Notes under the pieces: model-generated
The model's input: only the letters and a program-made list of their open reading frames with translations
The model's database searches: none
Told to the model about the DNA's origin: nothing
Part shown: piece after piece, positions 9,919 through 25,983 of the stretch
How the letters are laid out: every line of letters begins with the position of its first letter
Position numbering within the stretch: the first letter of the stretch is position 1
Assembly (NCBI GenBank): GCA_018969015.1
Contig: JAGWZE010000002.1
Coordinates: forward strand, 124,001 to 188,000
Source: Alphaproteobacteria bacterium
GTDB taxonomy: Bacteria > Pseudomonadota > Alphaproteobacteria > Caulobacterales > Aquidulcibacteraceae
Direction: 5' to 3'
Length of the DNA: 64,000 nucleotides
Program-made: the position numbers and the translations under genes

Positions 9919-10897
9919 AGGCCGCCTCCGTGATCTTGGCGGCTTCCCGCATCGTCCAATCGTTCCAATCGTTCAGGCCGTCCGGCGCCCAGGCGAGCGC
10001 CACCGACACGCCCCGCCGCGCCAGCTCCACGCCGAGCGCGCGCGCATGACGCTCGCCGGTTCCGCCTTCGTCGCGGTCGGGGGCGATCACGACACGGCGC
10101 ACCGTGTCGGGGATTTCCAGCTTCGGCAGGTTCGACGCGCCGAGCACGGCCACGGCCGGCAAGCCGAGCGCTCGGCTTGCGCTCAACGCGCTTTCGATTC
10201 CCTCGGCGATCACGAGCGCGTCGCGCACGTCGCCCAGGATGACGCCGCCGCCCGTGATCGGGCCAAGCGACAGCTTGGGCTTTTCCAACTCGGAGCACTT
10301 GCGCCCGGGCGGCTCCAAAAAGATCCGCTGAATTGCGATCACGTCATGAGGCGCGGACAGCTTCGACACGCCGCCGATGAGCGCGGGGCGCTCGCCGCGA
10401 AGCGGTCCGCAATAGCACCGCGCTAGGAAGCGCAGCGACGGCCCCCAGGGCGGGCGAAGTGCGCGCGTCTTCTCCAAATAGACGCCGCCGAGCGTGGCGC
10501 GGTGGACGGCCTTCGCCTTGGCCCAATCCCGCAGCGCGTGCTTGGCGTTGCGGGCGCGCGCCTCGGCCGCGTCGGCCTCATCCTTCGCGGCGGCCTCACG
10601 GTTCCGCGCCATGCGCTCCGGGTCGGCCTCCAAGTAGTCATTCGTCAGAAGCCAATCAGCGGCCTCGGCGCGGTCGCGCGCATAGCCCAGCTCAATGACT
10701 GCATCGAGCACGCCGCCGCCTTTCCCGGTTCGATGGTCGAACCACGTCCGGGCGTTCAGGTCGGCGACGAAGCCGCCGTTGTGGCCCGCGCGGCATTTTC
10801 CGTTTTTCTCCCGCCGATGGTCGGGCGGCATGAGGGGATCAATCAGCGTGGCGAAGGCGTCGCGGCTGATTTGCGCCTTAAGGTCGGTGGCGGTCAT
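9908..10897 (-). CDS. Toprim-domain DNA primase
   Basis: 329 aa. The N-terminal part holds a CHC2-like region (KCRAGHNGGF near residue 34, then TWFDHRTGKGGGVLDAVIEL). The C-terminal half has a toprim domain with the acidic motifs VIAEGIESA (about 217-225) and VVIAPDRDEGG (about 256-266), which bind metal in primases of this type. It makes RNA primers for replication of the element, with the adjacent DUF927 ATPase as the likely helicase partner. Its start overlaps the stop of the zinc-ribbon gene by 4 bases. Confidence 0.88.
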   Translation of the reverse strand: MTATDLKAQISRDAFATLIDPLMPPDHRREKNGKCRAGHNGGFVADLNARTWFDHRTGKGGGVLDAVIELGYARDRAEAADWLLTNDYLEADPERMARNREAAAKDEADAAEARARNAKHALRDWAKAKAVHRATLGGVYLEKTRALRPPWGPSLRFLARCYCGPLRGERPALIGGVSKLSAPHDVIAIQRIFLEPPGRKCSELEKPKLSLGPITGGGVILGDVRDALVIAEGIESALSASRALGLPAVAVLGASNLPKLEIPDTVRRVVIAPDRDEGGTGERHARALGVELARRGVSVALAWAPDGLNDWNDWTMREAAKITEAAYAR

Positions 10898-11325
10898 TCG
10901 GCGCCCCCTTCGTCGCGCAACACGTCGTAGGGCGATACGTCCACCATCGCGGCCAGGCGCTCGGCGGCGAGCGCGTCCACACGCTCGGCGTCGTCAGGTG
11001 CGGACCGGCAGGGGCGACAGGTGCGGTTCAGGTAGCGAGGTGCGCGACGGCCCGTGACGTGCTCGAAGCGGTCGCCGCAGCGAACGCAACGGCCTTCCCA
11101 GGTCAGAAGCGCGGACGACTCGCCGCTTGCGTTCGTGTGGGGTTCGACGCGGGCGAGGGTGTAAACGTGGACGACGCCGCGCGCCGTTTGGCGGATGCGC
11201 TCGCCGACACGATGCGCGGTGACGCCGGGTTCGCTATATTGGCGGTGCGCCAGCCCATGAGCGCTTTCGTTCCCGGCCTCGGTCGCGCCCGCCAGCGCGC
11301 CGGGGCCGTTCTCTTTCTGGGTCAT
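10894..11325 (-). CDS. Small zinc-ribbon protein
   Basis: 143 aa from the ATG at 11325 (MTQKENGPGALAGATEAGNE). Cysteines C80/C83 and C103/C106 form a four-cysteine ribbon (CVRCG, then CRPC) in the C-terminal half. The first 50 residues are polar and probably flexible. The frame is open 35 codons further upstream, but that part would overlap the neighbouring gene and reads as a shadow. It is the gene immediately before the primase (4-base overlap), so a DNA-binding helper role is possible. No family name is known to me. Confidence 0.6.
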   Translation of the reverse strand: MTQKENGPGALAGATEAGNESAHGLAHRQYSEPGVTAHRVGERIRQTARGVVHVYTLARVEPHTNASGESSALLTWEGRCVRCGDRFEHVTGRRAPRYLNRTCRPCRSAPDDAERVDALAAERLAAMVDVSPYDVLRDEGGAE

Positions 11326-11339
11326 CCGTCGCCCCCGCC

Positions 11340-11603
11340 TTACGCCGGTTGACGACGGGCCGCCGCGTCGGCGGCGGTGGAAGCCTTCGGCGTCATGCGC
11401 GCCAAAAGCCACGCCTCGAAGGCGCTCCACTCGTAGAGCACGACGGACGTTTTCGGCTTCACGAACGGCGGGCCGCCGCCAACGCAGCGCAACTTGGCGA
11501 GCGTGGCGACGCTCGGCAGGTCGCCGCGCGAAATGTCGTGCAGGTGAGCGAAACGGGCGAGGGCTTCGTCAGCGCGAAGCCGGTTCGATCCGGGGGCGGT
11601 CAT
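11340..11603 (-). CDS. AlpA-like / excisionase-type helix-turn-helix protein
   Basis: 87 aa from the ATG at 11603. The central segment (LPSVATLAKLRCVGGGPPFV, then VVLYEWSAFEAWLLARM) matches the MerR-like winged-helix pattern of AlpA and excisionase proteins: TLAxxRxxGxGPxFxK, a hydrophobic strand, then a helix ending AWL. Such proteins regulate integrase and replication genes or aid excision. Its place between integrase and primase is typical of phage satellites. The open frame extends upstream, but the sequence before 11603 is not protein-like. Confidence 0.7.
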   Translation of the reverse strand: MTAPGSNRLRADEALARFAHLHDISRGDLPSVATLAKLRCVGGGPPFVKPKTSVVLYEWSAFEAWLLARMTPKASTAADAAARRQPA

Positions 11604-11691
11604 GTGCGTTGCTCCGAATAGCCGCCAACGTCGGCGGTGTTCGAAGCATTGCGTTCGATGGCGTGCGTCGCCACGGACGCGAAATGCCGAT

Positions 11692-12312
11692 TTATTTTCC
11701 TCGGCGCGGGCGCTTCGTGTTGCGGGCGCGGATCGCCTCATGCGACGCGCCCACCGTTGGGTAAACTTCGGCGGCCACGTTCAGGTCAGAAACGAATTGC
11801 TCGGCGGTGATCGCCCCTAAATCGGTCTTGGTATAGCGCGCGTTTTTCGTCCATCGCTGCACGGTGCGGCGCTCGGAAATCTTGAAGCGCTCGCACACCG
11901 TCCCAACGGGGTCGGGATCGTCCACAATGCCGGCCAGAGCGGCGCGGACGTAAGCCACCGCCGACGACTTCGCGCCGTACAGGTGCATAGGCTCGGCTCG
12001 GCGTCCTTTGGCCAGCGGTTGCGATACGACAAGCGGCGGGAGAATGCCGTTCGCCAGTTCGACGGAAATGCGGATCAAATCGCTCATCAGGCCGCTCGGC
12101 GGGGGCCGGCTCGGGTTGTCGTCGTGGTGGATCAGGAGGCCGGCAGCACAAAGCCACCATTTGCGCCTTGCCTCGCGCGCTAGGTCTTCGCTGCAAGGCT
12201 TCGAAAAGACGGCTTCGGCGTCGGCCAACCCTTCGAGCAAGTCATTTCGCGACAGGCGAACAGTCCCGCCGTCCTGCGATCCGGTTTCGAAAAACGGTGT
12301 GTCGTCGTCCAT
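11692..12312 (-). CDS. Protein of unknown function with a possible C-terminal HTH
   Basis: 206 aa, soluble. The middle part (WWLCAAGLLIHHDDNPSRPP, then LMSDLIRISVELANG) is ordered. The C-terminal region (VCERFKISERRTVQRWTKNA) looks like a helix-turn-helix, with VCERFKIS as the first helix and RTVQRW as the recognition helix. It could be a regulator of the element. It stands alone, with about 90-base gaps on both sides, unlike the overlapping genes around it, so it may have its own promoter in 12313-12410. Confidence 0.55.
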   Translation of the reverse strand: MDDDTPFFETGSQDGGTVRLSRNDLLEGLADAEAVFSKPCSEDLAREARRKWWLCAAGLLIHHDDNPSRPPPSGLMSDLIRISVELANGILPPLVVSQPLAKGRRAEPMHLYGAKSSAVAYVRAALAGIVDDPDPVGTVCERFKISERRTVQRWTKNARYTKTDLGAITAEQFVSDLNVAAEVYPTVGASHEAIRARNTKRPRRGK

Positions 12313-12410
12313 CTCCGCACCCCATGACGTGCGACCATGTGAAGGGTCGGCGCGGCGGTCCGCATGGTTCGGGTCTTCGGGCCGTCGCCCTAGCCGCGCC
12401 GATCTCGATG

Positions 12411-12707
12411 TTACCGCGAATCAGGGGCGCCGCTCACCTCCGGGTGCGCCGCGTCCCAGATCGCCGCCGCCTTGTCGGCAGCGGCGTCGCACATGTCGGC
12501 GAGGTCTCGCAGGTGGTTCGCGGTGTTCATGAGGTTCATGGCGAAGCCCTCGGCCTCGGCTTCGGACATGTTGACCGTCAGGGCGGCGCGTTCCTCGTCT
12601 TGCATGACGACGGACGCCAGCCGCACGAACGGGAGCCACGTTTCGGCCCATTGTCGGTTCGGCCAGTTGAACACGCCCGGCGCGGTCGGGATCAGATCGG
12701 CGCTCAT
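12411..12707 (-). CDS. Small helical protein of unknown function
   Basis: 98 aa, acidic and all-helical (MSEAEAEGFAMNLMNTANHL, then LADMCDAAADKAAAIWDAAH). It overlaps the preceding gene by 4 bases (ATGA) in the integrase operon. No family is recognised. Confidence 0.55.
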   Translation of the reverse strand: MSADLIPTAPGVFNWPNRQWAETWLPFVRLASVVMQDEERAALTVNMSEAEAEGFAMNLMNTANHLRDLADMCDAAADKAAAIWDAAHPEVSGAPDSR

Positions 12708-12979
12708 TGCTTCGCCCCTTCGGCCAGAAGGCGCTCAACGTCGGCCGCAATCAGGTCGATCACGTCGCGCGTGTCGCCCGCCTCGATGGAGCGCCATGCG
12801 TGCAGCTTCACGAGCACGTCGGCCAGCGTCGGCGCGGGCGTCGTCAGCAGCAGCTCGGCGCGGTCTTGCTCGTAAGACGCCAGCGCGTCGAACGTGACGC
12901 CCTCGCCCTCGAAGGCGGCCACCGCCGCCGCCACTTCGTCAAAGTCGGCCTTCGCCGCGTCAAATGCGTGTCGCGTCAT
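12704..12979 (-). CDS. Small acidic protein of unknown function
   Basis: 91 aa, acidic and helical (FDAAKADFDEVAAAVAAFEG, then DVLVKLHAWRSIEAGDTRDV). Its ATG overlaps the integrase stop by 4 bases, so it is translated after the integrase on the same message. No family is recognised. Confidence 0.55.
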   Translation of the reverse strand: MTRHAFDAAKADFDEVAAAVAAFEGEGVTFDALASYEQDRAELLLTTPAPTLADVLVKLHAWRSIEAGDTRDVIDLIAADVERLLAEGAKQ

Positions 12980-14310
12980 CCTTCACCCTCCACCTTGCGC
13001 GCTCGGCGCGCTTTCGCCTCCGCAAGACGCGCGGGGGCCGTCGTGATTTGGTTTCCGATTTGGGCCACGGCGTCGCGGACCGGATCGGCGGCAAGGTGCG
13101 CATAACGCGCCGTCGTCGCGGCTTGGCGGTGGCCCAGGATTTTGCCGATCAGCAGCAGCGACGCGCCACGGGCGGCGGCGAAGGACGCCACGCTATGCCG
13201 CAGGTCATGCAAGCGCACGTCGTGCAGCTTGGCTTCCTTCCGCACACGGCGCCACGGGCGTTCCAAATCGTCGGCGGGGGCCAAGGGTTCCTTCGTCGTC
13301 TCGTCAATCGGTGCGCGCGGGCCGGGGAAGACGAACGCACCGTTGCGCGGGCGTTCGTTCAGCAGTTGGAGCGCGGCGGGCGACAGGTGAATAACGCGCT
13401 CGCCCGTCTTGCCGCGCTCACGCGGAAGGCGGATCAAGGCGCGCTCGAAGTCGATTTCCGCCCAACGAAGGCGCGTGATCTCCCGCAGGCGGGCGCCGGT
13501 CAAAAGCAGCAGGCGGATTTGATCGGCGTGGACGTTGAGCAGGTCGCCCGCGTTCGTCAGCGTCGTCAGGGTTTCGAGCAGGGTCCCGGTTTCCTCATCC
13601 GTCAGGAAGCGCTCGCGCGTGCGCGGCGTCGGTTTCTTGACCTTCGTGACCGGGTTCCGGTCGATCAGCTCGCGCTCGATGGCCCAGCTAAAGACGGTTC
13701 CGAGCGCCACCGTGGACGCGCGGCCGGCGGCTTCGCCGCCCCGGATGATGCGCTTCGCCCGGGGGCGGTCTTTGATCTTCTCCGAGCGCGCCGTCTTCCC
13801 GGCGATAATGTCGGCCTGCATTTGCTCCACGTCGGCCCGGCGGACCGCATGGGCGTACAGCTTCCCAATCAGCGGCTTGACGTGGTTCCGCAACATGCCC
13901 GCGTCGTGCTCCCAGGATCGGGTGCGCTTGTTCGGGTTCAGGGCGGGGCCGTCGGTCAAATAGCGCTCGATGAGGTCGGACACGGTGATTTGCCGGCGGC
14001 GGGCTTCCTCAGCCGCGCGCTCGGCTTCCTCGGCCTGGGCCATCGGGTCGCCGCCTTGCTGCACGATGAGCCGCAGACGCTCGGCCTCGGCGCGCGCCTG
14101 GGCGACGGTGAAGTGTCCCGACAGGGTTCCAAGCGTCGCCCGCCGCTGGCGGCCGTCGGCGGCCTTGTATTTGAGCCGGAAGGACACCGCCCCCGACGTG
14201 CGGACGCGGACGTGGAAGCCGGGAATGGTCCGGTCGAACACGTCGTAGTCCGCCGGGCCGGGCTTCAGGGCTTCGAGCGCCCGGGCCGTCAGGTTGATCT
14301 TTTCCGCCAT
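12976..14310 (-). CDS. Tyrosine-type site-specific integrase
   Basis: 444 aa, normal length. The N-terminal DUF4102-like arm-binding domain (residues 1-95) is followed by a core-binding domain (about 105-215) and a catalytic domain. Catalytic residues are all present: R274 in TGARLREI, H368 and R371 in LHDLRHS, H394 in LGHR, and the nucleophile Y403 in ARYAHL. GGAGGG precedes the ATG. Its gene is adjacent to the right attachment site, with candidate arm sites between. It should catalyse integration into, and excision from, tRNA-Lys, and appears intact. Confidence 0.95.
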   Translation of the reverse strand: MAEKINLTARALEALKPGPADYDVFDRTIPGFHVRVRTSGAVSFRLKYKAADGRQRRATLGTLSGHFTVAQARAEAERLRLIVQQGGDPMAQAEEAERAAEEARRRQITVSDLIERYLTDGPALNPNKRTRSWEHDAGMLRNHVKPLIGKLYAHAVRRADVEQMQADIIAGKTARSEKIKDRPRAKRIIRGGEAAGRASTVALGTVFSWAIERELIDRNPVTKVKKPTPRTRERFLTDEETGTLLETLTTLTNAGDLLNVHADQIRLLLLTGARLREITRLRWAEIDFERALIRLPRERGKTGERVIHLSPAALQLLNERPRNGAFVFPGPRAPIDETTKEPLAPADDLERPWRRVRKEAKLHDVRLHDLRHSVASFAAARGASLLLIGKILGHRQAATTARYAHLAADPVRDAVAQIGNQITTAPARLAEAKARRARKVEGEG

Positions 14311-14351
14311 CGTCTCGCCCTCCGGTTCCCGGGGGCCGTTTCAGACGCCAC

Positions 14352-14379
14352 GGGGACACGCGGGGACACTATGGGGACA
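14352..14379 (+). repeat. Right GGGGACAC array (candidate integrase arm sites)
   Basis: Three GGGGACA(C) units in direct orientation start at 14352, 14362 and 14373. The last 21 bases (14359-14379) are identical to 3139-3159 at the left end. They lie about 140 bases inside the right attachment core and next to the integrase gene, as expected for integrase arm-binding sites. Confidence 0.6.
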
Positions 14380-14521
14380 CGGTTACTGCAATTCAACGCA
14401 ATTCGCGGAAATGCGCCGCCACGGCCGCGCGCTCGATTTTCCGCGCTATAGCTGGCAAAACGTCCACTAGGCGCAATTCGGAGCAATCGGACGGAACGCG
14501 GCGAAAAGGCTTGCCAGTCTT

Positions 14522-14568
14522 ACTTTTAATCAGAGGGTCCCGGGTTCGAATCCCGGCGGGCTCACCAT
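14522..14568 (+). repeat. attR: right 47-bp copy of the tRNA-Lys 3' end
   Basis: Identical over 47 bases to 3047-3093. It contains only the anticodon loop to CCA part of tRNA-Lys; no 5' half precedes it, so it is not a functional tRNA. Confidence 0.93.
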
Positions 14569-14621
14569 TGGTTTTCAAGAATTGCGCGGTGGATCAGCGG
14601 TGCGCTTGTCACGCGACCCGA

Positions 14622-17693: not shown

Positions 17694-18326
17694 CTATTTC
17701 GCGCGCCGGATGGACTGGACGGCGTCGCCCAGGCCCGCCGCATCGAGGTCCATCGCGCTGGTGACGATCTGGCAGCGGCCCGTGTAGTTCGGTCCGGTGC
17801 AGATCTCCCAGGCGCCGCCTTGCACGCGCAGGGACGACGCGGCGGCCGCGAATTTCCGCGTCGCGAGATTGGGCGTGTCCATCGTTACGCCGACGCTTTT
17901 GCCGCGGAAATCGGCGCGATCGTAGAGCACGATCCGATAGACCGGCTGAGTGGGGCCGAAGTCGGCGTCGTCGCCGGCCGCTGCGCCGGCCCCGGCCGCT
18001 GCGGGCGCCGCCGCCCCGCCGATCTCCACGCCCCACGACTGGCCGCCGATCCGCACCGGCGGCGGTTCGGTCACGACCTTGCTGGGCGCGGTCGTCGTCA
18101 CCGTCTTGCTCTTGGATTTGGTCGTGGTGGTGACTTGCGTCGAGCCGGGACCGCCCGTGACCGTCGTCGTGCTGGTGGTCGACGTCGTCGTTTTCGACGT
18201 CGTCTGCGGCTCCGCCTGCGCCTGGGACGGCGCGACCGCGACGAGCGCCACGGCGACGAGAAGGGCGAGCAGGCGGGGCGCACGCGCGGTCGGATGGTCG
18301 GAAGGAAGGTGCGGCAGGCGTGGCAT
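17694..18326 (-). CDS. Secreted beta/gamma-crystallin domain protein
   Basis: 210 aa. A signal peptide (hydrophobic core about 18-32, likely cut after AQA near residue 38) is followed by a Thr/Ser/Lys-rich low-complexity linker (about 41-85) and an Ala/Gly-rich stretch. A C-terminal beta/gamma-crystallin-like Greek-key domain (about 128-209) contains YRIVLYDRADFRGKSVGV, WEICTGPNYTGRC and a final VQSIRR. The D/N-D/N-x-x-S-S calcium signature of the family is degenerate here (AAAASS and LGDAVQS), so calcium binding is doubtful. It is probably exported to the periplasm or surface. Divergent from the metallopeptidase gene. Confidence 0.75.
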   Translation of the reverse strand: MPRLPHLPSDHPTARAPRLLALLVAVALVAVAPSQAQAEPQTTSKTTTSTTSTTTVTGGPGSTQVTTTTKSKSKTVTTTAPSKVVTEPPPVRIGGQSWGVEIGGAAAPAAAGAGAAAGDDADFGPTQPVYRIVLYDRADFRGKSVGVTMDTPNLATRKFAAAASSLRVQGGAWEICTGPNYTGRCQIVTSAMDLDAAGLGDAVQSIRRAK

Positions 18327-18498
18327 GGCGTGGCCTCCTCGATCAGGATGCGGATCGATCGTGGCCGATGCAAACGCGCCCGGGCGTGACCCCGGTCACC
18401 GGGAGGCGGTCCGCGGCGGAGGCCGCACGGACGACATGGCGCTTGTGCTGGCGACGCCGAGGCGGTGTAGTTCGGCAGTTAACGCCAGGAGCGATCCG

Positions 18499-19425
18499 AT
18501 GACGGTTCTTCGTTCGACTTTGTTCGCCTTGGCGCTCGGCGGGTTGGCCGCCCTGGCGCCCGTCGCCGCGGCCCAGACGACGCCCGCGGCGTCCGCCTTC
18601 GATCCGTCCGACCCCAGGCAGAAGGGCTATGTCGACGGCAATCTGATCTTCCTGGCCTATCACGAGGTCGGTCATCTCATGCTCGACACGGCGCTGGTCG
18701 ATCAGGCGGCGGATCGTCGGGCCTCCGAGGAGGCGGCGGACGACGTCGCGATCTACATCATGCTCCCCGACGAGGACGAACCGGACCAAGCCAGAGAGAT
18801 TCTCTACGCCATCCAGGGATGGAAGCGCAGCGCGGAAAGCGGTGATGGCGTCTCGAGCAGTCCGCACTATCCGGACGACGCCGATCGCGCCGCCCGGATT
18901 GCCTGTTATCTTTACGGCTCCAATCCGGATCGGTTTGCGCGACTTGGGAAGATCTTCCCGAATTCGATCGACTCCGTCGATTGCGAAGCCGAGTTCACGG
19001 CGCTGACGGAGGACCTCGACGCGTGGTTCGGAGAGGCGCTCGTGAAGAAGGGCGAAAAGCAGGGCGCCTTGCCCGAGGTGCGCTACGAGGATGCGCCGCC
19101 CGCGCTGCAGGCGGCGAAAGCCTATCTGGAAAGCACCGAACTTCTCGAGGACGTTGCGAAAGACATCGCGCAGTTCATCAACCTGCCCGAAGGCGTGCTT
19201 CTTGTCGGGCAGTCCTGCGGTCGCGGCAGCGCAGAATTCCGCTATTCACCGGGCGCCCGCATCATCACGGCCTGCTACGAGGCGGTCGATTGGCTGATGC
19301 GCGACGCGAACGACGAAGAGCAGGTCGTGGCGGGAGGGGGCGAAGATCGCGCCGTCGACGGCGCTCTCGGATCGGGCGGTTCGCGCGTCACCCAGCGGCC
19401 CCGCACGGCGCGTCCGCGCCGCTAG
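18499..19425 (+). CDS. Secreted DUF4344-type zinc metallopeptidase
   Basis: 308 aa. A signal peptide ends near residue 25 (VAAAQ). The zinc-binding motif HEVGH is at 55-59, and the following SEEAADDVA (76-84) matches the EE-x-x-AD third-ligand region of DUF4344 proteins. The rest contains four or more cysteines that could form disulfides. The start at 18499 is preceded by CAGGAGCG. A putative periplasmic protease whose substrate is unknown. Its last 4 bases overlap the end of the convergent TIR-WD40 gene. Confidence 0.8.
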   Translation: MTVLRSTLFALALGGLAALAPVAAAQTTPAASAFDPSDPRQKGYVDGNLIFLAYHEVGHLMLDTALVDQAADRRASEEAADDVAIYIMLPDEDEPDQAREILYAIQGWKRSAESGDGVSSSPHYPDDADRAARIACYLYGSNPDRFARLGKIFPNSIDSVDCEAEFTALTEDLDAWFGEALVKKGEKQGALPEVRYEDAPPALQAAKAYLESTELLEDVAKDIAQFINLPEGVLLVGQSCGRGSAEFRYSPGARIITACYEAVDWLMRDANDEEQVVAGGGEDRAVDGALGSGGSRVTQRPRTARPRR

Positions 19426-22343
19426 CGTGCGCGCGCCGCCGCCGCCGCCGGAGCAAGGGGCGGCGCGCCGGCCACGCCGGCGCAGACGTCGCGACGCGGG
19501 TCGGGCCATTCGTTCGCAAGCAGCGAATCCGCGGTGATCTCCGCCTCGCTGAACCGCCGGGCCGGCCCCGCGCCGAGCATCGTGCGGCACACGTCCCTGG
19601 CAAGCACGGCCCAGGACTCGGTCAGCCGCGTGACATCGAACAGGCGCACGGCGCCGTCCTCGCCCGCCGTCAAAAGACGATCGCCGCGCGGCGAGAACGC
19701 AACGCCGAACACCGCGCCGCCATGGCCGGCGAGCGTCACGAGTAGGCGGCCGTCGCGCGTATCCCAGATGCGCGCGCTCTGGTCCTCGCTGGCCGTCGCG
19801 ATGCGCGTCCCGTCGGCCGAGAACACGGCGCTGAACACCGGCCCGCCATGTCCGTCGAGCACGCGCTGCAGGACGTGCGAGCGCGCATCCCACAATCGCG
19901 CCGCGCCGTCGTCGCTGGTGGTGAGCACCATCGTGTCGTCCGGCGAGAACTGTACGCCGCCGACGCCGTCGTCATGGCCCGTGAACGTGTGGATCGCCGC
20001 GCCCGTCTCCGCCGACCAGAGCCGCGCCGTGCCGTCCTCCGAACCGGTGACGATGCGGCGGCCGTCATGCGAGAACGCCACGCTGCGCACCTCGGCGTCG
20101 TGACCGCGAAGGGCGACGACGACGCGCAGAGTGCGCGCATCCCGCACGTAAGCGAGGCCGTTCGCGTGCGCCGTCGCGACGAAGCGGCGATCGGGTGACA
20201 TCACGGCGGCGAGCACGCCGCCGTCCGCGGCTGCCGTCCGCGCGATCGGCGCGCCGGATCGGGCGTCCCACAGCCCCGCGCCGCGCGCGCCCGCCGCCAG
20301 TATCGCCGCGCCATCCGCCACCAGGCTCGCGCCCGCGAGCGCGCCGAGGTCGCTTTGCACCGCGCCGAGCGGGGCGAACGAGTCGGCCCGCCAGCGCATC
20401 ACCGCGCCCGTCGTCGACGCGGCGACGATCTCGCGCGCGCCCGGGTCGAGCTCGACGCTCGACAGGCCCCCCGTCGGCGCCCGAAGAACCTGCAAAAGAC
20501 GCGTTTGCGGCAATGGCCACAGGCGGGCGGCGCCGTCCTGCCCGGCCGTCAAGGCGTGCGCGCCGTCGGGCGCCAGGACGGCGGCGTTGACGAGACCGGA
20601 ATGGCCGCGCAGCACCGACAACGGCGCGCCCGTGTCGGCCGCCCACACGATCGCCGCGCCGTCCTCGCTGGCGGTGATGACATGGCGCCCATCCCTGGAG
20701 AAACTTGCCTTCGTCACCGAGTTCGTGTGTCCCGTCAGCGTCGCGAGCAGGGCGCCGGTGGCGGCGTCCCAGATCCGGGCCGTGCGATCGACGCCGCCCG
20801 TGACGACGCGCCGGCCGTCCGCGGAAAAGCCGATGTCGAACACCTCGAGCCGATGTCCCTCCAGCTTCGTGATCGGCGTTGCGCGCCGGAGGTCCCACAC
20901 GATCGCGGTGCGATCGACGCCGGCGCTGGCGAGACGCGCGCCCTCGGGCGAAAACGCGACGTCGTAGACCGCATCGGTGTGCGCTTTCAGGGGGCGGAGT
21001 TCATTGCCGCTCGCAGTCTCGAACAGGCGCACGTCGGCGAACGCGCCGCCGATGGCGACGGTGTCGCCGTCCGGGGAGATCGCAACGCTCCACACGTGGG
21101 TCTCGCCCGGCGCGAGCAGCCGCGTCGCAGCGCTCGAGGCCGCCGTCACCACGGCGACGGCGTTGTCGTCGTCGCGGATGACGGCGCGCGCGCCCGCATC
21201 GTCGAGGGCGATCGCCGCGATCGGCGCGCCCGTCGCCTTGACCGTCGCCGTTTCGGTCCAGTCGCGCCGGCTCCAGAAACTGACTCCGCCCGACTCGTCG
21301 CCGGTGACGAGGCGCGCGTCGTCCGCGGTGAACGCGGCCGCAGTGATCGCGCCGGCGCGCGCGCGCAGCGTAGCTATGGGCGCTCCGTCCGCGACGCGCC
21401 AGATCTTCGCCGCGCCATCGGCGCTCGTGGTCACGGCGATCGTTCCGTCCGGCGAGAACTGCGCATCGAGCACGGCGTCCTCATGCAGCATCGGCGGCAG
21501 GCTCGACCCCGCCTCGTGCGACACCGCGCCCAGCGCCGCGCGGTATAAGTCCTCGTTCTGCGGCGCGAGCTGCATGCCGGCGAGCGCGTAGCGTGCGGCG
21601 GCCAGCGGGTCCCCGCCGGCAAGGCGCTGCCACGCCCGCTCCGCGAAGAAGCGGCTCAGCGTGAGATGGGCGTTGTTGGCGTTGACGACCGCGACGGCCG
21701 TGAGCGCCGCGAACGTGACCGTCAGCGCACTGAGCGTCAGCGTGCGGATGCGGGTGCGCTGCTCGGCCCGCCGGCGGTCCCGGCCCCACAGATCGTCGAA
21801 ATCGACGCCGAGCATCCCGGAGGCGAGCCGCGCGCACACGCGGTCGCGCCCGTCGCGACGAACGTCGATGCCGACGGGCTCCAACGGCATTTCGCCGTCC
21901 GGGCCGTAGCGCACGCGCAGCGCCTTCGGGAAACACTCGAGCGCCGGATCCGCCGCATTCGGTTCGCCGTCGACGATGACGGCGAACACCGGCGCGTCCG
22001 GCCGCGCCCGCTTGAAGTGCGTGATCTCCGCCTCGACCCAGCGCGATTGCGCCGCGCGCGGCGAACACACCACGATCATGCACTGCGCGGACTCGAGCGC
22101 GCGGCGCACCACCTCGCCGATGTCGCCGGCGGCGGCCATGTCCTCGTCGTCGCGGAACACCTTCCCGAGCCGCCGCGACGGCGGCAGATCGGGCGCTGCG
22201 CCCTTGGGAACGCGGTAGTGCTCCAGCCACCGATGCAGCCGCACGCCCCAGGCCTTGTCGCCCCAGGAATAGCTCAGGAACGCGCGGTAGCGCGGGGCCG
22301 ACGCGCCGGTAGACGTCGAAGGTGCGCCGCCGATGGTGCCCAC
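19422..22343 (-). CDS. TIR domain - transmembrane helix - WD40 repeat protein
   Basis: 973 aa. A TIR domain (about residues 17-135) has AFLSYSWGD, KVFRDDEDMA and SRWVEAEI. By alignment with the WVHKEI motif of SARM1, E106 is the expected catalytic glutamate of TIR NADases. One transmembrane helix (about 200-222) follows, then roughly 15 WD40-like units (about 286-930), enough for two beta-propellers, and a C-terminal segment (ARDVCRTML, then NEWPDPRRDVC). I infer that the propellers sense a ligand or protein and that TIR then consumes NAD or makes a cyclic-ADP-ribose-type signal. It starts at GTG with AGGAGG overlapping the stop of the upstream SLOG gene. Confidence 0.88.
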   Translation of the reverse strand: MGTIGGAPSTSTGASAPRYRAFLSYSWGDKAWGVRLHRWLEHYRVPKGAAPDLPPSRRLGKVFRDDEDMAAAGDIGEVVRRALESAQCMIVVCSPRAAQSRWVEAEITHFKRARPDAPVFAVIVDGEPNAADPALECFPKALRVRYGPDGEMPLEPVGIDVRRDGRDRVCARLASGMLGVDFDDLWGRDRRRAEQRTRIRTLTLSALTVTFAALTAVAVVNANNAHLTLSRFFAERAWQRLAGGDPLAAARYALAGMQLAPQNEDLYRAALGAVSHEAGSSLPPMLHEDAVLDAQFSPDGTIAVTTSADGAAKIWRVADGAPIATLRARAGAITAAAFTADDARLVTGDESGGVSFWSRRDWTETATVKATGAPIAAIALDDAGARAVIRDDDNAVAVVTAASSAATRLLAPGETHVWSVAISPDGDTVAIGGAFADVRLFETASGNELRPLKAHTDAVYDVAFSPEGARLASAGVDRTAIVWDLRRATPITKLEGHRLEVFDIGFSADGRRVVTGGVDRTARIWDAATGALLATLTGHTNSVTKASFSRDGRHVITASEDGAAIVWAADTGAPLSVLRGHSGLVNAAVLAPDGAHALTAGQDGAARLWPLPQTRLLQVLRAPTGGLSSVELDPGAREIVAASTTGAVMRWRADSFAPLGAVQSDLGALAGASLVADGAAILAAGARGAGLWDARSGAPIARTAAADGGVLAAVMSPDRRFVATAHANGLAYVRDARTLRVVVALRGHDAEVRSVAFSHDGRRIVTGSEDGTARLWSAETGAAIHTFTGHDDGVGGVQFSPDDTMVLTTSDDGAARLWDARSHVLQRVLDGHGGPVFSAVFSADGTRIATASEDQSARIWDTRDGRLLVTLAGHGGAVFGVAFSPRGDRLLTAGEDGAVRLFDVTRLTESWAVLARDVCRTMLGAGPARRFSEAEITADSLLANEWPDPRRDVCAGVAGAPPLAPAAAAARAR

Positions 22344-22353
22344 CGCGCGCCTC

Positions 22354-24360
22354 CTACACCGGGACCGTGATCTGCTTGCCGCCGAACACCGCCTGCCAGT
22401 TCTCGATCTCGCTGACGACGATCTCGTCGGCGGCGTGGGCCAGTGCGGTGACGGTGGCGTAGTCGAGATCGGCGTCGTCGTCGTCGAGGAGGCGGCTCAT
22501 GCGCGCATGCACCGCGTCGAGCTTCTGCGCGGTCACTTCCGAGATCGCCGCGAAGCGCTCGAAGTCGCCGAAATAGCGGATCCCGGCGATGGCGCCGCCG
22601 AGCGTCGGGAGCGCGACGCCGAGGAAGGTGAAGATCTTGGCGCTCGTCTTCAGCATCGCGTGGTCGACGACGCCGAGCCATTCTCCCACCTGCAGCCCGA
22701 GGAATACCGCCACCGTCGCCACGGCGGCCTGGAACAGGCGCTCGGAGAGGTGATCGAGCTTGTGATGCACGGTCGTGAGGCGCTGCGCCTTGGCGTGGTG
22801 ATAGTCGCGCTGGCGCACGACGTGGCGGTCGAGCAATTCCCGCAGGCAGTGGCGCAGGTAGGCGGGCGTGACGGCGACGCGCGGCAGCCCCGCCTCGCGC
22901 AGGGCCTGTTGCGCATACCATTCGGGCCAGGACGTCTCGACGCCGCGGGGCCAGCGGCCGGGCGCGCGCGCGGCGCCGAGCGCGAGCAGGATCGGCGCAT
23001 GGCGCAGATACTCCGCCACCCGGCGCGTCTCGAACCAGCGCCCGTGCCAGCGGCGCTTCTGGCCGAGGAACGTGATCAACACGATGGCGGAAAGCATCAC
23101 GAGTTCGACGAGGGCGAAGGCCCATTTCCCTGTCGAGTCCGTGAGCGGCAGGTAGGCGACGCCGCCGATCACAGCGATCGCCGACAGCACGAAATTGATC
23201 ATCATGCCGCCGCGATAGGTATCGGAAAGACGCGCGGCGATCGCATCGGCCCACACGAAGCGCGGCGCGATGAGTTCGCGCACACGGCCCGCAAAGGCGG
23301 CGTCGCCGCCCGGCGCCGTCGTCAATGCGCCCAGCACCTGCGCGCCGTCACGTTGCGCCCACGTCTCCGGCGTGTCGTAGACCTGGGTCAGCGGGCGGAA
23401 GGGCGAGGCGCCTTTTTCGCCGCCGAACAGCGCCTCGATGCGGCGATAGGCATGCCACATCGGGCTGCTGCGCGGGCGCCACTGCGTGGCGGCGAGCGCA
23501 TCGAGATCGCGATAGGCCGTCGCGCCATGGGCGTGCTTGTGCCGGCGGGCCGCCTTCGGCTGCAGGGCGTCGCGCACGATCTGCGCCAGGCGCGCGCGCG
23601 CCGCGGCCTCCGAGAGCGCCGCACGGGGCGCCACGAGGTCCTCGGGGCTGAGCAGGAGACGCCACGCCTCGGGGCGGTCTGGCGGAATGTGGATCACGGC
23701 CGCGCCGAGATCGAGGGCGGCCTCGATCGTGTCGCTCGCGCCGCCGGGCAGGCGGGTGCGCACGCCGTCCCACACCGCGACGAGTATGTCGGACTGTTCG
23801 ATCATCACCCGCGCGGCGAGCGCCACCCGCGCGGAGATCCGGGCGTCGAGCGCCGCTTTCGCAGGGCCGCCGCCGATCGCCGCCGCGGCGAGCGCGTCGA
23901 TCGCAGGGTCCGCGTCGCGGAGCTCGAAGAGGTGGGCCCGGGCGGCGAGGTCCCGCAGCGCTTCGACCCGCCCGCGGGCCGCGGCGTCGCCGGGGAGGCC
24001 GCCGGCCACGATCGCGGCGTGCTCCTGCGCGGTCGCGGGCTGGGCATGCAGGGCGGCGTAGAGGTCGAGCCCAAGCGGAAGGGGCGCGACCACCGACCAT
24101 CCCCGCGCCAGCGCGTCATGCGCCGCGATCTGGTCCGCGCCGTCAGCAAGAAGCGTATGCAGCCGCGTCCGGCCGGCCCCGTCCGCCCCGATCTCGGCCT
24201 CGGCGAACCCGGCGAGCAGATCGAACACCGCGGCGAGGGCGCCCGTCACGCCCACGGCGTTGGCCGACATGAGGGGATGCGCAGCGCGATGGCCCGTGAC
24301 GGCGAGGCTCAGGCGCGGCCTGGGAACCGCGGGCGCGATCGCCTTGTTCTGCTGACTCAT
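22354..24360 (-). CDS. SLOG nucleotide-sensor domain fused to a four-helix SLATT-like membrane region
   Basis: 668 aa. The N-terminal half resembles the SLOG (DprA/LOG-like) Rossmann fold: LSLAVTGHRAAH at 17-28, LLADGADQIAAHDAL at 70-84 and SDILVAVWDG at 190-199. The C-terminal half has four transmembrane helices (about 386-404, 414-433, 542-560 and 575-595) with RWFETRRVAEYLR after the second. It ends VVSEIENWQAVF, as in SLATT-type membrane effectors. SLOG domains bind nucleotides and SLATT regions are predicted pore-formers in conflict systems. It is the first gene of a two-gene operon with the TIR-WD40 gene. Confidence 0.8.
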   Translation of the reverse strand: MSQQNKAIAPAVPRPRLSLAVTGHRAAHPLMSANAVGVTGALAAVFDLLAGFAEAEIGADGAGRTRLHTLLADGADQIAAHDALARGWSVVAPLPLGLDLYAALHAQPATAQEHAAIVAGGLPGDAAARGRVEALRDLAARAHLFELRDADPAIDALAAAAIGGGPAKAALDARISARVALAARVMIEQSDILVAVWDGVRTRLPGGASDTIEAALDLGAAVIHIPPDRPEAWRLLLSPEDLVAPRAALSEAAARARLAQIVRDALQPKAARRHKHAHGATAYRDLDALAATQWRPRSSPMWHAYRRIEALFGGEKGASPFRPLTQVYDTPETWAQRDGAQVLGALTTAPGGDAAFAGRVRELIAPRFVWADAIAARLSDTYRGGMMINFVLSAIAVIGGVAYLPLTDSTGKWAFALVELVMLSAIVLITFLGQKRRWHGRWFETRRVAEYLRHAPILLALGAARAPGRWPRGVETSWPEWYAQQALREAGLPRVAVTPAYLRHCLRELLDRHVVRQRDYHHAKAQRLTTVHHKLDHLSERLFQAAVATVAVFLGLQVGEWLGVVDHAMLKTSAKIFTFLGVALPTLGGAIAGIRYFGDFERFAAISEVTAQKLDAVHARMSRLLDDDDADLDYATVTALAHAADEIVVSEIENWQAVFGGKQITVPV

Positions 24361-24612
24361 TCCTGCCCGCCGCCAACGCTGGCCGCCACGCTACATCAGG
24401 CCGACGCGCCGGTCGATGCTGCCTTGGGAGGGAGCGCGGGCGCGCGTGGCCGGCGCAGGCGCAAGGGGGGGGCAGCGCGCCTTCGTCCGCCTCCGGACCG
24501 CAGCAGGCGCGCGCAGCCGCCTCCCGCCGTTTTTCCTCGCCAGGGGGATGCCGCGCGCTACCTTCTCGGAGAACTGCGGTCGGCGGGCGCCGCAAGCGAG
24601 GGCACTGACTCG

Positions 24613-25983
24613 ATGACATCCGGCTTCGTCGCAACGACGGCGCGTCCACACACGGCGACATCGGCGCCCACGCGGCTGAAAACGCAGATCGTCATCGTCG
24701 GCGGCGGCGCAGGCGGGCTCGAACTCGCCGCCCGGCTCGGCGCCGCCTATCGGGGGCGACACTTCGACATCATCCTCGTCGAGCGCAACCAGACCCACAT
24801 CTGGAAGCCGCTGCTTCACGAGGTGGCGGCGGGCTCGCTCGACGCCAACCTCGACGAGGTCGGCTATCGCAGCCACGCGCACCGCTGGGGCTACCGCTTC
24901 TTCCTCGGCGCCATGGAAAGCATCGACCGCGTCAATCGCCGCGTGATCATCGCCCCCATCGTCGACGAGGACGGCCGCGAGATCATGGGCCGCCATGCGA
25001 TCCGCTACGACTATCTCGTGCTCGCGATCGGGTCGGTGTCGAACGACTTCGCCACCCCCGGCGCCGCGGAGAACTGCATCTTCCTCGACAGCCGCGTGCA
25101 GGCCGATCGCTTCCGCCAGAAGCTTTTGAACCAGTGCCTGCGCGTGTCGCGCGAGATGACCCAATCGCCCAACGCGGACTCCTTTGTGCGCGTCGCGATC
25201 GTCGGCGGCGGCGCGACCGGCGTCGAACTCGCGGCCGAACTCTACAACGCCGCCGCGGCGCTGCGCTTCTATGGACTGGAAGTGTTCGATGAGAGCCGCC
25301 TGAAAGTCACGCTCATCGAGGCCGGGCCCCGCATCCTGCCAGCCCTGCCAGAGAAGCTCGCGGAAGCCGCGCACAAGGAGCTCGAGGCGCTCGGCGTGCG
25401 CATCTACACCGGCACGCCGGTCGTGGAGGTCACGCGCGACGGCATCACGCTACGCTCGGGCGAGACCATTCCGGCGGACTTGCGCGTCTGGGCGGCGGGC
25501 GTGAAAGCCCCGGACTTCCTGAAAGACATTGCCGGCCTCGAAACGTCCCGCGCCAATCAGCTGGTCGTGCGCCCGACGCTGCAGACCACGCGGGACGAGC
25601 GCATCTTCGCCATCGGCGACTGCTGCTCTTTTACGCCGCCGGGCGAGACCCGCCCGGTGCCGCCGCGCGCCCAGGCCGCGCACCAGATGGCGTCGGTCGC
25701 CTTCGAGAACATCCGCCGCGCGATCTCGGGCAAGCCGCTGCGCGACTTCCACTATGAAGACCACGGGTCACTTGTATCGCTCAGCCGGTTCTCGACGGTC
25801 GGCAGCCTGATGGGCAATCTGATCGGCGGGCGCATGGCGGTCGAAGGCGCGCTCGCGCGGTTCGTCTATGTCTCACTCTATCGCATGCACCTGCTCGCCA
25901 TTCATGGCTGGCTCAAGGGCATGGCGATGATCGTCGTGGGCCACGTCAATCAGATCATCCGGCCCAAGCTCAAGTTGCACTGA
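24613..25983 (+). CDS. ndh: Type II NADH dehydrogenase (NADH:quinone oxidoreductase)
   Basis: 456 aa. An FAD-binding Rossmann motif IVIVGGGAGG is near residues 26-35, and an NAD-binding motif VAIVGGGATGVELAAEL near 197-213. A flavin-contact strand IFAIGDC is followed by a C-terminal amphipathic region (LYRMHLLAIHGWLKGMAMIV) that anchors the enzyme to the inner membrane. It passes electrons from NADH to quinone without pumping protons. I took the ATG at 24613, with GCGAGGG upstream; the long open frame before it is the shadow of the SLOG gene. It is divergent from the SLOG/TIR operon, and the two start 252 bases apart. Confidence 0.9.
   Translation: MTSGFVATTARPHTATSAPTRLKTQIVIVGGGAGGLELAARLGAAYRGRHFDIILVERNQTHIWKPLLHEVAAGSLDANLDEVGYRSHAHRWGYRFFLGAMESIDRVNRRVIIAPIVDEDGREIMGRHAIRYDYLVLAIGSVSNDFATPGAAENCIFLDSRVQADRFRQKLLNQCLRVSREMTQSPNADSFVRVAIVGGGATGVELAAELYNAAAALRFYGLEVFDESRLKVTLIEAGPRILPALPEKLAEAAHKELEALGVRIYTGTPVVEVTRDGITLRSGETIPADLRVWAAGVKAPDFLKDIAGLETSRANQLVVRPTLQTTRDERIFAIGDCCSFTPPGETRPVPPRAQAAHQMASVAFENIRRAISGKPLRDFHYEDHGSLVSLSRFSTVGSLMGNLIGGRMAVEGALARFVYVSLYRMHLLAIHGWLKGMAMIVVGHVNQIIRPKLKLH

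Follow-up and report, generated by a model that had tools for sequence, protein, structure and literature searches.

A conserved pairing of a SLOG-SLATT-like membrane protein with TIR proteins, mainly in Alphaproteobacteria, and its probable likeness to Thoeris signalling

Genes and features at the locus

The DNA considered here, hereafter the window, is a stretch of 64,000 nucleotides from an alphaproteobacterial genome (Caulobacterales, Aquidulcibacteraceae; contig JAGWZE010000002.1). Two adjacent genes on its minus strand encode a membrane protein with a SLOG domain and tandem SLATT-like units, and a protein that combines a TIR domain, a membrane helix and a double WD40 propeller (Table 1). 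A sequence-only reading had described a protein of 668 amino acids (aa) with the motifs TGHR, DGAD and VAVWDG and four transmembrane helices, followed on the same strand after 10 bases by the TIR-WD40 protein, and all of this is present as described. The three motifs occupy residues 22–25, 73–76 and 194–199, and the 10-base gap between the SLOG stop codon and the GTG start of the TIR gene is accompanied by an AGGAGG whose first two bases lie in that stop codon. Long open reading frames (ORFs) also exist on the opposite strand (e.g. 22333–25983, plus strand); among homologues, however, it is the minus-strand reading that is kept.

Table 1. Features of the locus, in window coordinates.
Feature	Position	Strand	Basis and remarks
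Membrane protein (668 aa) with SLOG and tandem SLATT-like units	22354..24360	-	ATG start; ORF, sequence, model, aligned homologues; predicted nucleotide sensor/membrane effector
SLOG domain, aa 15-270 (TGHR, DGAD, VAVWDG)	23551..24318	-	Fold comparison
First SLATT-like unit (aa 354-460; a pair of membrane helices)	22981..23301	-	Sub-cut-off profiles, hydropathy, model
Second SLATT-like unit (aa 499-660; a pair of membrane helices plus a conserved C-terminal tail)	22381..22866	-	Hydropathy, model, conservation
TIR, membrane helix and double WD40 propeller protein, 973 aa	19422..22343	-	GTG start; ORF, Pfam, model
TIR domain (about aa 19-180) with the putative catalytic residue Glu106 in SxWVxxE	21804..22289	-	PF13676, ThsB_TIR
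Single membrane helix, aa 202-220	21684..21740	-	Hydropathy 2.12; N-terminus predicted cytoplasmic
First WD40 propeller, aa 279-611	20511..21509	-	5mzh_A, Z 45.3
Second WD40 propeller, aa 615-905	19629..20501	-	7big_A, Z 45.2
Exported DUF4344 putative metallopeptidase (HEVGH)	18499..19425	+	PF14247 matched in the longer ORF 17950-19425 (E 2.5e-17); start at 18499 chosen by the analyst

The 668-aa protein yields no SLOG family match in Pfam, PADLOC or NCBIfam, a PDB sequence search with the SLOG profile returned a single row (a coat protein, E 0.37), and Foldseek with the SLOG model gave no row at E ≤ 1e-3 (best, 8zva ShosA, 0.031). It was via fold comparison, run after Foldseek, that SLOG structures came out on top. 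The structure model, built from 47 alignment rows (mean predicted local distance difference test score, pLDDT, 89.9; predicted template modelling score 0.89), matches YpsA (2nx2) most closely over aa 15–233 (Z 16.6, 161 residues, 2.6 Å), followed by DprA (3uqz, Z 12.9) and LOG (5zbj, Z 10.0). Middling scores were obtained with the BcThsA SLOG domain bound to the cyclic ADP-ribose isomer 3'cADPR (7uxs, Z 7.3) and with the TRPM2 chanzyme (8srb, Z 8.2 over 181 residues); TRPM rows limited to about aa 10–280 have a root-mean-square deviation of 4–6 Å and those extending into the membrane part one of at least 15 Å. Judged by its model, the protein is thus a member of the SLOG Rossmannoid fold, as had been proposed. 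Residues invariant over the 47 aligned rows include G23, H24, R25, G74, D76, E188, D191, W197, D198, G206 and G207, and we take the conserved loop residues to be of nucleotide-pocket type. The motif PGGxGTxxE, the catalytic motif of LOG phosphoribohydrolases, occurs in none of the 47 rows, and on this ground a LOG enzyme was rejected.

Hydropathy places membrane segments at aa 386–404, 414–432, 547–565 and 576–594; a fifth hydrophobic segment (aa 35–53) is, in the model, a helix inside the SLOG domain. Together with the model, this yields two helical units of two membrane helices each, C-terminal to SLOG. The first unit is recognised by SLATT_1 of NCBIfam (E 3e-6, 27.2 bits against a cut-off of 41) and by DUF4231 of Pfam (24.6 against 24.7), the second weakly by SLATT_4 of NCBIfam (E 0.098); on its own, the second unit has no SLATT match in Pfam. 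Among the 47 aligned rows, 42 match SLATT_1 at E ≤ 1e-3, an E-value threshold rather than the curated cut-off. The membrane part therefore resembles SLATT and is called SLATT-like here, its scores in the window protein lying below the curated cut-offs. Neither SIR2 nor Macro was matched in this protein with Pfam and NCBIfam.

For the second protein, the TIR assignment stands on firmer profile matches, namely TIR_2 (PF13676) at aa 22–133 with E 6.4e-13 and 49.7 bits against a cut-off of 28, and ThsB_TIR with E 2.7e-7; WD40 of Pfam covers the remainder. Profile searches proposed with the earlier reading thus find TIR, above its cut-off, and WD40, but not SLOG, and SLATT/DUF4231 only below the cut-offs. 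Against PDB sequences, the N-terminus gives a weak plant TIR match (3ozi, E 0.0025). Glu106, the putative catalytic residue, is invariant in all five aligned TIR-WD40 proteins, and SxWVxxE is kept in 58 of 59 TIR proteins of related loci; the one that lacks it is a fragment of 130 aa. In the window protein, 7 lysine or arginine residues fall within the 15 residues before the membrane helix and 1 after it; four other TIR-WD40 proteins scanned show the same bias (6–7 before, 1–2 after). From this charge distribution, the only basis for the topology, the TIR domain is probably cytoplasmic and the propellers periplasmic; the WD40 part would thus sense something outside the cytoplasm. Among 58 TIR proteins of related loci, 50 have a hydrophobic segment at a lenient threshold, with more lysine and arginine before than after it in 38, equal numbers in 8 and the opposite in 4. 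All 58 match TIR_2, up to 34 match single TPR families and four match WD40; at one locus (L043), an FGE-sulfatase domain lies behind the TIR.

Linkage, co-presence and loss

Relatives of the SLOG-SLATT protein were collected by a scan of named genomes, and the best 80 of 119 were taken as loci, with flanks of up to 8 kb, some shortened by contig ends. Most belong to Caulobacterales and Sphingomonadales, while a few bear the labels Lysobacter, Pseudoxanthomonas or Gammaproteobacteria. The set retains near-identical loci as well as those whose genomes were used elsewhere in the analysis, so that the counts are not independent. TIR genes were counted by six-frame translation because gene calling missed or merged genes (the window's SLOG gene lies under an antisense ORF; L101 is another case).

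A TIR gene lies in the flanks of 52 of the 80 loci. The nearest is less than 600 bp away in 28 loci and 1.9–4.4 kb away in 24; none is farther, though flanks reach up to 8 kb. In sequence clustering of neighbours (>80 bits, query cover >35%; short diverged lipoproteins escape it), only a trypsin-like protease family besides TIR exceeds 9 of the 80 loci. From the density of TIR_2 in 12 hand-picked SLOG-positive genomes of the window's own family, about 0.07 would be expected per 18 kb. TIRs also accompany a distant branch of SLOG-SLATT proteins (about 590–620 aa, with TGHR and WDG largely retained), namely at 11 of the 18 loci retrieved. The two genes occur in every orientation and also at wider spacings; hence the two-gene operon of the earlier reading survives as a conserved pair, but its same-strand order is one of several, and the TIR may lie away from SLOG. 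One SLOG-SLATT gene without a TIR neighbour (L045:8868-18641) adjoins a NACHT-like/FGE-sulfatase protein and an nSTAND1 protein.

The link extends beyond adjacency. Among the nine genomes of genus g2, from the window's family, five (G003, G005, G006, G007 and G008) carry a full-length SLOG-SLATT gene, and TIR_2 is found in all five and in none of the other four (G001, G002, G004 and G009). Between two conserved flanking genes, the emptied site retains a 28-residue SLOG scar in G004, TIR scars in G002 and neither in G001; these three were judged, the second flanking gene of G009 lying beyond the stretch examined. The cassette was thus lost at least twice in this genus. In family f13, 43 of 199 genomes have a SLOG-SLATT match, 20 of them full length. 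TIR_2 at E<1e-17 occurs in 19 of the 20 full-length genomes but in only 2 of 20 that lack a match; for any TIR_2, the figures are 20 of 20 and 12 of 20. The negative set consists of the first 20 listed genomes, a non-random choice, and 23 partial-match genomes were excluded. Counted from coordinates, 14 of the 20 full-length genomes have a TIR no more than 5 kb from SLOG, where TIR density would predict about 0.3 even over a span of 22 kb. Fisher tests on the co-presence comparisons give p = 0.008 and 3e-8, values that ignore the relatedness of the genomes. In a class-wide sample, SLOG-SLATT was found in 5 of 289 genomes (E ≤ 1e-30); the match is full length in just two, one of which is the genome of the window.

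The conserved co-occurrence on which the sequence-only reading had staked its case is therefore found, both in the 52 loci and as co-presence in g2 and f13. Taken together, the TIR and SLOG-SLATT genes are very probably functionally linked.

Exported partners and TIR modules

The plus-strand DUF4344 gene of the window converges on the TIR gene and overlaps its end by 4 bases. Convergent DUF4344 genes accompany six of the seven TIR-WD40 genes examined (the window, L062, L125, L073, L095 and L169), at L169 without an adjacent SLOG. When all called genes at the 80 loci are considered, DUF4344 relatives are confined to the four loci that have TIR-WD40. The peptidase is thus a likely third member of the system. 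The notion that every TIR-WD40 gene has such a neighbour was dropped, since the distant seventh gene (L172:8816-12976, genome G031) adjoins a patatin-like gene instead; this genome has no SLOG-SLATT match, and the gene possibly represents the same type of sensor wired to a different effector. As for the WD40 sensor on TIR envisaged earlier, the propellers are confirmed, but their placement is probably periplasmic and the exported DUF4344 gene had been missed.

Other TIR types have exported neighbours of their own. The trypsin-like protease is found at 27 of 80 loci by clustering and at 29 by profile, 28 of the latter with a called TIR gene. A loose pattern finds the usual His or Ser motif missing from 11 of 35 trypsin-family proteins; some may therefore be inactive. 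One 846-aa trypsin-family protein (L129:2818-5358) matches a WD40 profile built from the TIR-WD40 proteins (E 3.5e-25). Directly after non-WD40 TIR genes, a mini-protein with a lipobox is encoded in 28 of 54 cases, often with a short-repeat or GNPI-like tail; the pattern, defined after viewing 22 example mini-proteins, is met after 18 of 332 other genes longer than 300 aa, 2 of 80 SLOG genes, 1 of 34 trypsin genes and none of four TIR-WD40 genes. Such ORFs (e.g. L075:4764-5027, L131:11933-12259 and L132:5202-5447) encode acidic products of 66–137 aa with tails of repeated NDQGS, EEQTGTVERTGP or GNPI; one example had no Pfam match. Downstream of a shorter TIR type (L034, L044 and L170), an exported protein of some 280 aa is encoded, which in L034 is DUF3472 by Pfam and whose L044 and L170 counterparts are 80% and 59% identical to it.

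TIR types thus tend to have their own exported partner, DUF4344 with WD40 and trypsin and/or a mini-lipoprotein with the TPR type. The combination of an exported protease with a small variable protein recalls, as a resemblance only, the peptidase/precursor pairs that an excerpt of PMC7159879 describes with conflict systems. TIR modules of two genomes (G024 and G028) lie on contigs other than that of SLOG. It is as if several TIR sensors could serve one SLOG-SLATT effector, similar to the one or several ThsB per ThsA mentioned in the excerpt of PMC11204291. Three TIR genes adjoin one SLOG-SLATT gene at L114, L123 and L090.

A proposed pathway

With moderate confidence, we favour a second-messenger pathway from TIR to SLOG that spans the inner membrane, resembles Thoeris and ends in growth arrest or death. 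Periplasmic WD40 propellers would detect a trigger, perhaps via or together with the exported DUF4344 peptidase, and thereby activate the cytoplasmic TIR domain, which could convert nicotinamide adenine dinucleotide (NAD+) into an ADP-ribose-type signal. SLOG, as the cytoplasmic sensor of the partner protein, may bind this signal; the tandem SLATT-like helices of that protein would then oligomerise or open, and the inner membrane would be depolarised or permeabilised. Growth of the cell would then cease, or the cell die, be it as abortive infection or as suicide upon envelope damage. Precedents exist for the individual steps: according to the excerpts of PMC11204291 and PMC12948488, TIRs make ADP-ribose (ADPR), cyclic ADPR (cADPR) isomers or His-ADPR, the SLOG domain of ThsA binds 3'cADPR, and the ThsA variant with a transmembrane (TM) and a macro domain (TM-macro) is proposed to perturb membranes, while SLATT is predicted in PMC7159879, likewise in excerpt, to be a nucleotide-responsive pore-forming effector.

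A bolder version, which we hold to be rather doubtful, regards the system as a modular pathway across the envelope that serves immunity or suicide. Its TIR sensors would be interchangeable, each with a WD40, TPR or FGE-sulfatase domain for periplasmic recognition and often with a cognate exported partner (the DUF4344 peptidase, or trypsin with or without the repeat-tailed mini-lipoprotein), and would converge on one shared SLOG-SLATT channel gated by ADP-ribose, a functional analogue of TRPM2. If so, an attack on the envelope could be sensed before, or without, entry of nucleic acid.

Several observations weigh against the favoured pathway. All SLATT scores of the window protein fall below the curated cut-offs. 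The TIR portion of the model has low pLDDT, mostly 40–64, and the propellers fill its list of fold matches. The charge bias behind the periplasmic placement is strong for the WD40 types and weaker for other TIR types. TIR genes are missing from the flanks of 28 of the 80 loci; some of these contigs are short, but others, such as L063–L066, have full flanks. TIR genes can sit away from SLOG, and a TIR-WD40 gene exists in G031, a genome without a SLOG match. Finally, the loci and genomes compared are akin to one another, so that the counts are not independent and the p-values ignore phylogeny. Measured against all this, the sequence-only proposal is partly supported: the system is real and conserved and its logic is about right, while it had overlooked the exported component, the likely location of the propellers in the periplasm and the fact that TIR modules are exchangeable.

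Defence or other functions

Strict anti-phage defence, i.e. abortive infection of the Thoeris type set off by phage, is a possibility to be taken seriously, though we would not bet on it. Those studied mechanisms that come closest, in which a TIR works with a SIR2-SLOG or a TM-macro effector, are directed against phages as far as the excerpt of PMC11204291 goes, and the SAVED-TIR profile of PADLOC matches 52 of 58 TIRs from the loci (the ThsB profile 4 of 58). Flanking genes differ between loci, and the repeated loss within one genus points the same way. However, when 105 of 273 listed flanking genes were run through PADLOC (two DUF4344 genes were among those left out), merely five families appeared (mad2, mad3, mad8, AriA and SAVED_CHAT) with at most 8 member-matches as a raw count. 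Moreover, a SLOG-SLATT match was found in none of 50,697 phage records, a pattern-based scan confirmed none in viral contigs, and a single one of 72,556 plasmid records had it, namely a replicon of 1.8 Mb with a TIR gene next door to SLOG-SLATT. The system thus looks chromosomal, patchy and repeatedly lost, and by analogy an anti-phage activity is plausible.

The lack of phage copies in these records fits a second explanation, which we consider conceivable on a tentative footing: a suicide or signalling switch for envelope stress or development, in which peptidase and propellers watch the periplasm and the membrane potential is adjusted without any virus. Here, the exported partners of the TIR genes would find a natural place (DUF4344 at 6 of 7 TIR-WD40 genes, trypsin at 29 of 80 loci, the lipoprotein-like ORF after 28 of 54 non-WD40 TIRs), as would the flanking genes shared by the five loci of genus g2. 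Yet, patchy presence (5 of 289 genomes in the class sample) and repeated loss suit a conflict system better than a housekeeping function.

Some TIRs are protein-interaction modules. The TIR might hence act as a mere scaffold that binds the SLOG-SLATT protein directly, without a diffusible signal. Tight gene linkage at 52 of 80 loci would agree with this, but it appears unlikely given the retention of SxWVxxE in 58 of 59 TIRs and of E106 in all five TIR-WD40 proteins, TIRs of very different architecture, some elsewhere in the genome, that accompany the same SLOG family, and SLOG loop residues that are conserved and presumably of the nucleotide-pocket type. Chance neighbourhood or hitch-hiking without shared function, which could appeal to the 28 of 80 loci without a nearby TIR and to the 11–25 TIR_2 matches in many genomes of the window's own family, is highly improbable and was rejected in view of co-presence in TIR-poor lineages and co-loss scars, together with the recurrence of linkage in the distant SLOG-SLATT branch at a level far above background TIR density.

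Other neighbourhood observations

About 5 kb from the TIR gene, the stretch 10001–14570 of the window holds an integrase-like gene (12976–14310, minus strand; named by eye) with small genes to its left. Near it, at 14543, lies a stretch resembling a tRNA 3' end with GGTTCGAATCC, which ARAGORN does not call as a tRNA. This region may be an integrated element, and the TIR gene lies outside it. Elsewhere, in the window's own genome (L048:7332-9234, on G000:C20) and at L051:6400-8288, the gene of a patatin-like phospholipase directly adjoins that of a stand-alone SLOG protein (about 220 aa); the two loci belong to two genera, share flanking genes and represent a possible second SLOG-effector pair.

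Comparison with known systems

The described Thoeris types pair TIRs with SIR2-SLOG or TM-macro effectors, as far as the excerpts of PMC11204291 and PMC12948488 extend. With type I (ThsB TIR and ThsA SIR2-SLOG), the present system shares a TIR enzyme, a SLOG-bearing sensor protein (7uxs, Z 7.3) and one or several TIRs per effector. In contrast, the effector here is a membrane protein that carries tandem SLATT-like units and shows no match to SIR2. The TIR protein, for its part, is anchored in the membrane, its large C-terminal domain is probably periplasmic, and exported proteins accompany it. With type II (TIR and TM-macro ThsA) it has in common that a TIR-made ADP-ribose derivative is proposed to drive membrane perturbation, again according to the excerpts of PMC11204291 and PMC12948488; the sensor here, however, is SLOG without a Macro match, and the membrane part is tandem SLATT-like rather than the TM domain of ThsA. 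The difference from Thoeris types noted in the sequence-only reading is thus borne out by the effector. Filing under Thoeris was rejected, since a TIR is present but the SIR2-SLOG or TM-macro architecture of ThsA is not: by architecture the system is not Thoeris, although by analogy it probably works like it. A weak match to the NCBIfam model of Thoeris type III ThcB4 (E 0.028) was also seen, and the system may overlap with a recently named Thoeris subtype.

SLATT effectors as defined by Burroughs, Aravind and colleagues share the predicted nucleotide-responsive pore (PMC7159879, in excerpt). In firmicute phages, a TIR gene adjoins a SLATT gene with two transmembrane helices, at times with a zincin-like metallopeptidase (PMC9503650, in part). 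Here, by contrast, SLOG and two SLATT-like units reside in a single protein, the TIR carries WD40, TPR or FGE domains, the hosts are mainly alphaproteobacterial, and no phage copies were found. Within the literature searched, which covered few subscription papers, no description of the TIR and SLOG-SLATT combination was found; the founding SLOG/SLATT paper may mention SLOG-SLATT fusions. New are the probably periplasmic propellers and the tendency of TIR types to have their own exported partners.

In animals, TRPM2 is activated by ADP-ribose. Its N-terminal SLOG-like region likewise sits on a membrane protein and gives the middling match to 8srb mentioned above, whereas no NUDT9-H domain is seen here and the TRP channel nature of the membrane part is hypothetical. 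Because an animal channel has a similar SLOG-like, ADP-ribose-sensing region, the evolutionary origin of this type of gating becomes testable. If the proposed pathway holds, it would represent a receptor-like, outside-in mode of TIR signalling together with a new type of effector, a SLOG-gated membrane protein; its parts are compact, and the question of the ligand is directly testable.

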